DNA from: Closterium sp. NIES-65 | Taxonomy: Eukaryota > Streptophyta > Zygnematophyceae > Desmidiales > Closteriaceae | Assembly (NCBI GenBank): GCA_948144175.1 | Contig: CANXME010002096.1 | Span: 124,001-188,000, forward strand | Length of the DNA: 64,000 nucleotides | Direction: 5' to 3' | Shown: in pieces, positions 43,014-53,140 of the stretch | How positions within the stretch are numbered: the stretch's first letter is position 1 | How the letters are laid out: the number at the start of each line of letters is the position of its first letter | Translations under genes and position numbers: made by a program | The notes under the pieces: generated by a model | The model's input: the letters and a program-made list of their open reading frames with translations, nothing else | What the model was told of the DNA's origin: nothing | Databases searched by the model: none

Positions 43014-46000
43014 TTAAGACACCATGGGTTCTGGTTGTTGCTGCTGCTGTTGTTGCTGCTGCCGTGCAGCTTCCACCAAGTCTCTCAGAAGCTTCCCGCT
43101 GGTCCAGCTACCGCCCAAGCTTTTCCGACCAATGCCACCATTCCCAGCCCTCATCATTGTCACAAATTCGTTGTAGTCAATCTGCCCATCCTGCTCCAGA
43201 CGCGGCAGCCAAAGCATAAGTGCAAAAGAAGTTCGCAAAAAGTGCATGATCGGGCTGTGTATTAGTGCATACAAGTGACGAAAGTGCAAACAAGTGACGT
43301 AAGTGCAAACAAGTGACGAAAGTGCATTCATTGTTCGAGGTTGGACTGTTGGAGCTTACATCGATGGTGCTTCCATTAGTAGTGCTTACGTTGTTAGTGT
43401 CGACGTCACGCATCGTCTCCACAATGCAGTCCTCATCGATGCTGTACTCCCTACAAGCATGCTGCAGCTCATCCACTGTAATGAATCCCGAGCTGTCCTT
43501 GTCAAAGTGTGAAAACGCCGCAAACAGCGTCTCCTCGCGCTCGATCTTGTTCAAATGCATCGTGGCCGCTAGAAACTCCCCATAGTCGATCATGCCATTG
43601 CCGTCAAAGTCAGCCTGGCAGGGAGAAGTGGAAGGGAGAAATGTGAGTATGGGTTCCATAGAGTCTCCTCTTGAATATCCTCGCGCTCGATCTTGTTCAA
43701 ATGCATCGTGGCCGCTAGAAACTCCCCATAGTCGATCATCCCGTTGCCATCAAAGTCGGCCTGTCAGGGAGGAGAAAAAGGGAGAAATACGATAGAAGGG
43801 ATTGAATAGAGCCTTTTCTTTACTCTTCTCACACACTCTATCTCGCTCAAATGCATGGTGGCCGCTAAAATCTCTCCACATGCAATCATGTTGGCATCGT
43901 CAGATTCGGCCCGTAATGGACAAGAGAAAAAGAAAGGAAACTCATCACGGCACGAAAAAGAAAAAAGAAAAACAAAACGAACAAAAGAAAGAACAAAAAG
44001 AAAGAAAAAAAGCCCTCTCTCTCAAGTCTTCCCGGCAAAAGAGATTCCCAGCGTCCATCAGCTCCTGCACCTCACTGTCCTTCATGCCCACGCCCATCCT
44101 CCACTTTCCCCCTCCTTTCCAACTACAGACAGCACTCACCGCGTCCATGAGCTCCTGCACCTCGCTGTCCTTCATGTTGGCTCCGATGCGCTGCAGCCCC
44201 GCCTTGAGCTCCTCAAACGTGATGGTGCCGCTCCTGTCCGTGTCCATCATCTCAAACGTCTGCTTCAGCCCCGAGATCTCCTCCTCTGATAGCGACTCTG
44301 CGATCACCTGAGGAGGGCAGGGCATGTGCATGGGAAAAGGGGGAGCGGGTAGGGAGATGAGAGGGGGTGCTTGACAGAGAGGGTGCAGCTCCTGTCTGTG
44401 TCCATCATCTCAACCGTCTGCTTCAGCCCCAAGATCTCCGCCTCTGATAAAGACTCGGTGATCACCTGTGGAATGAGGAACGGGTAGAAAGGCAGACGGA
44501 GTGAGGGGCAGGGAGAAAGGGAGGAGAATGGTTATTGAGCTGACTCAAATCCCTTGAAGAGAGAAGAAGGATAGGAAAAGGAAGGAGGTGCATGACAAGA
44601 CGGGAGACGGCTTCAGCTCCAGCTGCACAAGGAAAGTAGTGTTTGTCTTTTAAGTTCAATCGCCGTGTCAATTAGTCAGTTCTTGTACCCACCGTGCGGA
44701 ATACTTTGAGGCGAGACAAACTCCCGCCCACGGTGGCTGTTGAGTCAAACTCATAAGTCACTCATTCACACCCTGGACAGGAGCCACTCATTCACACCCT
44801 GGACAGGAGCCACTCATTCACACCCTGGACAGGAGCCACTCATTCACACCCTGGACAGGAGCCACTTATTCACACCCTGGACAGGAGCCACTCATTCACA
44901 CCCTGGACAGGAGCCACTCATTCACACCAACTGAACCAACAACTCTAGCCACTTTAAACGAAGACCAGTTTCACTGTCAACGTGTGAATGCCAATTTCAC
45001 TCACCCCCACAGCCATTTTTTTTAACCTTGTTCAGCGCTGAGAATTGCTTGAGGCGAGATAAGATGCCAGCGGCCACAACTTAAAGGCCAGGCGAAACCC
45101 TAAGAGCACTGTTCATCGCACTCACCCGCAGAGCCATTTTTTTTAGTTTGTTCATCGCAGAGAATTGCTTGAGGCGAGATATGACCCCCGCGTCCAGAGG
45201 CCGGTCGGGTGCCACTCCATCCTGAGCGACCCACGGGTGGCCTGGAAAGCAGAAATGAAGGAGCGATGGGCATGGTGGGGGAAAGATAGGAATGTATGAG
45301 GCAAGGGATGACCCCCGCGTCCAGAGGCCGGTCCGGGGGCCACTCCCTCCTTGGCGACCCACAGGTGGTCTGAAGAGGGTTCAAGGAGAAGAAAGGAGTG
45401 GGGCACGGCAAGGGGAAGAAAGGAGTGGGGCACGGCAAGGGGAAGAAAGGAGTGGTGCACGGCAAGGGGAAGAAAGGAGTGGGGCACGGCAAGGGGAAGA
45501 AAGGAGTGGGGCACGGCAAGGGGAAGAAAGGAGTGGGGCATGGCAAGGGGAAGAAAGGAGTGGTGCACGGCAAGGGGAAGAAAGGAGTGGTGCACGGCAA
45601 GGGGAAGAAAGGAGTGGGGCACGGCAAGGGGAAGAAAGGAGTGGGGCACGGCAAGGGGAAGAAAGGAGTGGGGCACGGCAAGGGGAAGAAAGGAGTGGGG
45701 CAAGGCAAGGGGAAGAAAGGAGTGGGGCACGGCAAGGGGAAGAAAGGAGTGGGGCACGGCAAGGGGAAGAAAGGAGTGGGGCACGGCAAGGGGAAGAAAG
45801 GAGTGGGGTACGGCAAGGGGAAGAAAGGAGTGGGGCACGGCAAGGGGAAGAAAGGAGTGGTGCACGGCAAGGGGAAGAAAGGAGTGGGGCATGGCAAGGG
45901 GAAGAAAGGAGTGGGGCACGGCAAGGGGAAGAAAGGAGTGGGGCACGGCAAGGGGAAGAAAGGAGTGGGGCACGGCAAGGGGAAGAAAGGAGTGGGGCAT

Positions 46001-53140: not shown

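Follow-up and report, generated by a model that had tools for sequence, protein, structure and literature searches.

Exon-edge copies in the introns of sampled Closterium genes: probable intron growth by recurrent duplication over exon borders and a possible record of earlier exon sequence

Introner elements, which place one common sequence in many introns of unrelated genes, and direct repeats at intron ends are linked with intronic sequence that arises again and again across a genome. In tandem exon duplication and mutually exclusive exons, a whole exon copy adjoins the exon, carries both splice sites and keeps the frame; a study of U2AF1 reportedly concerns this arrangement. The accessible text of Ma et al. 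(2016, PMC4974935) describes a tandem duplication crossing an intron-exon boundary in the potato RdRp gene, and that of Lehmann et al. (2010, PMC2891723) describes some Drosophila introns as gained by duplication of exonic segments. In Closterium sp. NIES-65, introns average 485.4 bp according to the genome paper, which, in the part of its text that was available, makes no mention of exon-edge copies (PMC10407611). Our literature search returned no genome-wide report of introns built from exon-edge copies; subscription journals lay mostly outside its scope, and the result is weak evidence.

The window analysed here is a stretch of 64,000 nucleotides (C1798:124001-188000), and the genome searched comprised 874,075,685 bases in 2400 contigs. 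A CCT epsilon model from this genome matched a protein of Closterium sp. NIES-65, the probable source strain, at 100% identity over 464 aa. The window contains a CDPK gene (43014..53140, minus strand) with nine coding exons: E1 (53140-53035), E2 (52152-51843), E3 (51575-51403), E4 (50817-50674), E5 (49401-49249), E6 (45241-45126), E7 (44307-44140), E8 (43614-43390) and E9 (43190-43014). The coding sequence of 1572 nt encoded 523 aa without internal stops, and all eight introns were GT-AG. A 462-aa part of the protein matched CDPK3 of PDB entry 9vhu (E 9e-181), and the protein was 98% identical to a 523-aa protein of Closterium sp. Naga37s-1 (P0001). Spliced alignment of P0001 to the gene gave the same nine exons, with E9 ending at 43017 because the stop codon was unaligned. 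Among the CDPK paralogs (62-78% identity), exon lengths of 144, 153, 113/116 and 168 nt recurred; the introns between these exons are therefore older than the copies described below, as far as the CDPK genes are concerned. In one paralog (L074, on contig C1889), exons 6 and 7 were fused, that is, intron 6 was missing.

Copies in the window gene were called by blastn of each exon against the gene (E up to 0.01). Same-strand copies of exon edges were detected in introns 1, 3, 4, 5, 6 and 7, and none was detected at this threshold in introns 2 and 8, which are short (267 and 199 nt), exactly the distribution that the original prediction had given. The copies lay on the coding strand, in the adjoining intron and on the matching side, and the antisense matches were between the CAG-rich tail of E9 and a GCA/GGC repeat in intron 5. 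On the minus strand, intron 1 held a 29-bp array of about 22 units (52395..53054), each with the last 18-20 nt of exon 1 followed in nearly all by GTAAGC; 22.8 units were also counted in the second genomic copy of the gene. Intron 3 held a copy of the exon 4 head (positions 1-72) with the acceptor kept (50891..50962, 98.6%), and intron 4 a copy of the exon 4 tail (62-144) with the donor kept (50448..50530, 95.2%). Five copies of the exon 5 head followed on the same strand: positions 1-48 in intron 4 (50168..50215, 83.3%), 1-38 with the acceptor AG lost (50048..50085, 92.1%), 1-38 (49892..49929, 89.5%), 1-52 (49781..49831, 90.4%) and 1-91 with the acceptor kept (49524..49614, 96.7%).

Further along the minus strand, weak copies of the exon 5 donor edge (49007..49164) consisted of 21-nt units at 49007-49027 and 49097-49117, the second of which adjoined a match to exon 5 positions 98-145 (49117-49164, 74.5%, E 0.001). 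The exon 6 head was copied twice in intron 5 (positions 2-71 at 48129..48198, 80%; positions 2-72 at 45297..45368, 87.5%), and a third blastn match was a scrap of exon positions 7-34. Intron 6 held a copy of the exon 6 tail (46-116) with the donor kept (45005..45076, 83.3%) and a copy of the exon 7 head (1-87) with the acceptor kept (44379..44465, 88.5%). Intron 7 held a copy of the exon 7 tail (132-167) with the donor GT lost (44051..44086, 94.4%), a decayed copy of the exon 8 head (21-75; 43836..43890, 80%) and a second one (1-83) with the acceptor kept (43678..43760, 95.2%). Thus, the acceptor edges of exons 4, 5, 6, 7 and 8 were all matched in the upstream introns, as had been proposed, and the copies were edge-anchored, side-specific, ended inside the exon and mostly carried the splice site. 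The proposed donor-edge copies were recovered for exons 1, 4, 6 and 7, only weakly for exon 5 (74.5%), and not for exon 3, whose donor edge had no blastn copy; by reading, the intron start alone recurs there in a 20-bp array.

In the intron 4 copy at 50168-50215, CAG (Q) stands where exon 5 has AAC (N), and the Naga37s-1 protein has Q. The Q for N was seen in one of the three copies over that residue and at one of the four differing residues covered by copies. This old copy may preserve an earlier state of exon 5.

The analysis was extended to nine genes, namely the window CDPK, four CDPK paralogs and CCT eta, beta, epsilon and part of theta (five CDPK, four CCT; 53 introns, 106 edges), picked by family and not at random, with one genomic copy per paralog. 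The paralogs were modelled by spliced alignment with the protein P0008; models based on P0006, the CDPK annotated in Closterium sp. NIES-67, mistook exon-edge copies for exons, partly because P0006 itself contains one. The head of exon 6, HPWVAKDGVAPDKPLGSA, is present twice in P0006, and the repeat is an exon-edge copy read as exon, by annotation or by splicing. One end exon of the C1666 model was still an edge copy and was left out, as were terminal exons of CCT theta and C1666 judged unreliable and a portion of the final exon of C1889. At E up to 1e-3, a same-strand copy in the gene's own intron was found at 67 of the 106 edges, with 152 copies in all, of which 97 remained after removal of arrays and of copies more than 6 nt from the edge. 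By the same test, no edge of the 106 was matched in an intron of like length from another family, none in a non-adjacent intron of the same gene and none by an antisense copy.

All nine modelled genes carried copies, and a gene-specific cause was rejected on this count. Both proteasome loci examined also had them, beside three of four matched exons, so the pattern is not a peculiarity of the window CDPK, the one gene to which the original prediction had referred. At CCT loci located by protein-family match, copies stood beside the matched exon in 10 of 16, several of these loci coming from one gene; the search with the TCP1/CCT family also returned adjacent, overlapping fragments of a single exon. 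In a comparable scan, no copies were found at 34 of 38 protein-kinase loci, most of which consist of one long reading frame. For internal exons, 68 of the 78 copies in upstream introns touched the 5' edge, none the 3' edge and 10 neither, and of the 42 copies in downstream introns 33 touched the 3' edge, none the 5' edge and nine neither. Edges thus dominate over exon centres as the origin of copies in the nine-gene sample, and this comparison, of the kind that the original prediction had named as able to refute it, did not do so. We conclude, with high confidence for these genes, that exon-edge copies are a general feature of the introns sampled in this genome.

Acceptor-side copies lay upstream of the exon and donor-side copies downstream. 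The copied exon part had a median length of 68.5 nt and a maximum of 219 nt, and the inner ends were scattered over exon positions, mostly without a splice site by reading; splice sites gave no rule for where copies end. The nearest copy lay a median of 148 nt from the real edge at 35 acceptor edges and 158.5 nt at 28 donor edges, and the distance from its inner end to the real splice site was 47 nt or more at acceptors (34 edges) and 36 nt or more at donors (27 edges, one of which, at 0, was an exception). Copies were present in 39 of 43 introns of 400 nt or more and in 2 of 10 shorter ones, and intron length correlated with copy number (Spearman 0.73, 53 introns). Eight of the 12 copy-free introns measured 199-301 nt, and the other four 435, 474, 753 and 882 nt. 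Given these distances and the mostly short copy-free introns, a longer intron seems to consist of a short core and border units. One to four copies were present at 63 of the 67 edges, a figure that rules against minisatellites as the general class; a minisatellite build was limited to introns 1 (29 bp) and 5 (27 bp) of the window gene, intron 6 of CCT epsilon and part of intron 2 of the CDPK paralog on C1668.

With two arrays excluded, 36 of 37 donor copies still had GT and 51 of 59 acceptor copies still had AG. At a loss of 5.5% per site, the survival of GT is not remarkable (about 0.08 by our own approximate arithmetic), although it would become so for donors of the same age as the intronic halves. 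Exonic halves were about 90% identical to the exon, and identity was much lower in the intronic half, starting with its first base. The first 10 intronic nucleotides agreed with the real site at 60% for acceptors (control 50%) and 70% for donors (control 54%). Donor flanks stayed above control at 11-20 nt (44% vs. 28%) and 21-40 nt (38% vs. 27%), and the excess over control was down to 2 points by 20-40 nt at acceptors and by 40-60 nt at donors. Among the 31 copies at least 93% identical to the exon, five of which are units of one array, eight had an intron flank closer than those of unrelated genes (p below 0.05).

A scan for local repeat pairs, run with a low-complexity filter and with pairs of 99.5% identity or more excluded, yielded 109 exon-intron pairs in the nine genes and 39 intron-intron pairs, of which the window gene contributed 24; a further 20 lay outside the modelled parts, eight were exon-outside, two exon-exon and one intron-outside. 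The flanks of 10 single-ORF kinase loci had no local pair, and a single pair turned up in five intergenic stretches of the window. So few exon-free local duplications are not well predicted by random duplication plus selection. With a core of about 200 nt and units of about 150 nt, most viable duplications would cross a border anyway. The near absence of pairs elsewhere nevertheless suggests that duplication may favour borders.

Cells of Closterium multiply in the haploid state, and in NIES-65 duplicates exist for more than half of the ortholog groups that are shared, according to the accessible text of the genome paper (PMC10407611); near-identical second copies are therefore called genomic copies here, not alleles. 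The second copy of the window CDPK, on contig C1604, had identical exons. Its introns other than intron 5 diverged by 0 to 0.38%; introns 3, 4 and 7 differed in length, and the intron 5 minisatellite showed a large rearrangement. In the covered parts of eight of the nine genes, window intron 5 left out, SNPs between genomic copies numbered 10 in 5535 nt of exon-edge copies, 16 in 13719 nt of other intron and 2 in 7084 nt of exons, so that the copies differed in density from exons (p 0.007) and not from other intron (p 0.28). Indels in copies were not multiples of three in 34 of 40 cases. Two arrays, that of 29 bp in window intron 1 and that in intron 6 of CCT epsilon, were excluded from the indel, codon-position and clustering counts. 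Differences between exon and copy numbered 183 of 2751, 145 of 2765 and 488 of 2752 at codon positions 1, 2 and 3, a bias that suggested a coding role. By our approximate arithmetic, the third-position excess can be attributed largely to synonymous change in the exon (about 440 expected vs. 488 seen), and this arithmetic, the frame-breaking indels and the SNP density led us to reject that role. Differences unique to one copy were synonymous in 139 cases and not in 154, against a synonymous opportunity of 23%; since the exon can change between two duplications, this bias neither separates the readings nor proves neutrality. The copies look neutral, with no coding role.

The account best supported by these data, to which we assign about an even chance, is tandem duplication spanning the exon-intron border followed by exchange with the exon. 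Stretches of about 150 bp straddling the border would be duplicated in tandem, repeatedly, each event adding an exon-edge copy and its splice site to the intron. The duplication would be tolerated if the outermost donor or acceptor were still used, leaving the mRNA unchanged, and selection would eliminate duplications inside the exon. The unit's intronic half would then drift, and the exonic half would keep exchanging with the real exon through short-tract gene conversion or unequal exchange, the latter also adding or removing whole units. We infer that the likeness of the exonic half is maintained by conversion, that the border bias arises from selection alone and that the true edges are the ones used, and likewise what makes the duplications: the slippage- or repair-like local duplication of the original prediction is a reasonable cause, but duplication alone explains poorly an exonic half so much closer to its source than the intronic half.

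Comparison of the intronic halves supports tandem duplication across the border, firmly for only part of the units. Bounded adjacent intronic halves were alike beyond control in eight of nine donor pairs and in nine of 24 acceptor pairs, three of these nine acceptor pairs lying within one array of identical units. Outermost, unbounded halves were alike beyond control in nine of 25 and eight of 31 pairs; the remaining 16 and 23 showed no such homology, nor did 15 of the 24 bounded acceptor pairs. Among the pairs that exceeded control, bounded or outermost, some scores were low. Recent and complete units included a whole 153-nt unit at locus L082 (91.5% identity), a unit in CCT epsilon intron 1 alike at 55 of 56 nt, and repeated 120-nt units in intron 2 of the C1668 paralog.

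Homogenisation of the exonic halves with the exon after duplication is the simplest reading of the sequence comparisons. Differences within copies were clustered (combined p 1.5e-4 over 63 copies, eight singly below 0.05), and a four-gamete conflict was present at two of five testable edges among nine multi-copy edges. Two genomic copies of one CCT gene (L046 and L047) differed by a 136-bp exon-edge unit (L047 1712-1847), and the exon head of L046 equalled the L047 exon on one side of a shared 20-nt stretch and the L047 intronic copy on the other; an intronic copy can therefore become the real exon edge, or the reverse. SNP clusters of recent conversion were not found between genomic copies, the closest two SNPs listed within a copy being 20 nt apart and divergence being low. 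The clustered differences, the four-gamete conflict and the L046/L047 recombinant agree with homogenisation, and the missing SNP clusters lend it no support.

A bolder reading, which we consider possible but doubtful, is a copying process aimed at exon borders, in which border units of about 150 bp arise again and again and the expressed exon, or its RNA, serves as the template for renewing their exonic halves up to the junction. Introns longer than about 400 nt would then be largely assembled from their own exon edges as a time series, and exons could regain an edge from a copy. Plain tandem duplication with neutral decay and no exchange seems to us unlikely. It would require that introns change faster, for instance by slippage in pyrimidine- or purine-rich stretches, so that the exonic half alone stays recognisable. 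The clear tandem units at L082 and in CCT epsilon intron 1, the neutral-looking SNPs and indels, and a third-position excess mostly covered by synonymous exon change (about 440 of 488) agree with it. However, in 23 of the 31 copies at least 93% identical to the exon, the intron flanks were no better than those of unrelated genes, and SNPs, compared alone, were not more frequent in other intron than in copies (0.117% vs. 0.181%).

The drop in similarity at the junction and the great excess of exon-intron pairs over other kinds would also follow if the exonic halves were refreshed from spliced RNA or cDNA and not from the genomic exon, with the tract ending at the splice junction. A reverse-transcriptase domain (RVT_2) was present in two of ten window ORFs scanned, and the C1889 paralog without intron 6 is what cDNA-mediated intron loss would give; yet the splice dinucleotides, which are absent from cDNA, survive (GT in 36 of 37, AG in 51 of 59), and donor flanks keep some similarity to about 40 nt, and we rate such a template as quite unlikely. 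Very unlikely, in our estimation, is selection of the copies as splicing decoys, recursive splice points or exonic enhancers, under which the exon part and splice site are kept and the rest drifts. GT was kept in 36 of 37 donor copies in which positions +3 to +10 were about 63% identical, and in the 15 nt next to the junction differences at codon positions 1 and 2 were 0.032 and 0.035, compared with 0.02-0.15 (mostly 0.04-0.08) further in, a comparison that alignment ends may bias. Selected copies are hard to reconcile with a SNP density like that of other intron and above that of exons, with mostly frame-breaking indels and with AG survival of only 51 of 59. Tandem repeats are a known source of assembly error; even so, an assembly artefact is extremely unlikely, in agreement with the original prediction. 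The second genomic copy on another contig has the same intron build, with nearly the same sequence in introns 1-4 and 6-8, copies outside arrays differ from the exon by 1.4-25%, the annotated NIES-67 CDPK (P0006) repeats the exon 6 head, and the assembly of NIES-65, the probable source strain, was, by the available text of its description, built on PacBio reads with an N50 of 30 kb (PMC10407611).

Other repeated elements were present in and around the gene. The 18-bp palindrome TTTTGAGNNNNCTCAAAA, with an often self-complementary centre, was located in the window at 48760-48777, 48967-48984, 49709-49726, 50606-50623 and 50638-50655, and at up to two mismatches it occurred eight times in the window against 0.11 expected. 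Its core form lay between direct repeats in 7 of 16 cases; for random positions and for other palindromes the figures were 38 of 1368 and 0 of 11. The palindrome may be a small, target-duplicating insertion. As a general cause at duplication junctions the palindrome was rejected, a perfect one lying near one of 96 inner copy ends, with two imperfect ones by reading. Intron 5 of the window gene contains a 27-bp minisatellite of 99 units (45382-48064); in the second genomic copy (L069), 33 and 44 units flank an insert of about 700 bp (about 4118-4817). Among the ten window ORFs scanned, those at 19673-24236 and 55498-58617 (minus strand) carried RVT_2, gag pre-integrase and SH3-like retroviral polymerase domains, and we take them to be copia-type elements, one on each side of the CDPK gene.

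If the pattern is genome-wide, it would represent a regular, stepwise lengthening of introns in a close algal relative of land plants, and the source of intron sequence, usually argued from rare single cases, would become testable on thousands of introns in strains already sequenced. The many intact-looking decoy splice sites beside the true ones bear on how the spliceosome chooses. Exon-edge copies may also mislead gene annotation, as in the deposited NIES-67 CDPK with its doubled exon 6 edge.

Compared with known systems, the Closterium copies resemble mutually exclusive exons in that an exon copy lies beside the exon, but they are partial, often frame-broken and have one splice site, at the outer edge; their median of 68.5 nt, the 34 of 40 frame-breaking indels and the scattered inner ends led us to reject tandem duplicated exons. 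Introners likewise make intronic sequence repeatedly and genome-wide, whereas Closterium introns copy their own exons, and with none of the 106 edges matching a like-length intron of another family, introners were rejected too. The Drosophila cases, as far as the accessible text describes them (PMC2891723), share duplicated exonic sequence inside an intron; there, however, the duplication creates the intron from a proto-splice site, and the Closterium CDPK introns are older than the copies. The potato RdRp gene, in the available account (PMC4974935), shares a border-crossing tandem duplication that carries splicing signals, and such duplication was found in part of the Closterium units; in potato a single event in a single gene gave rise to a new intron, whereas in Closterium many genes are involved, on both donor and acceptor sides, and no new intron is needed. 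The Closterium pattern is an apparently genome-wide form of a process known from single cases.
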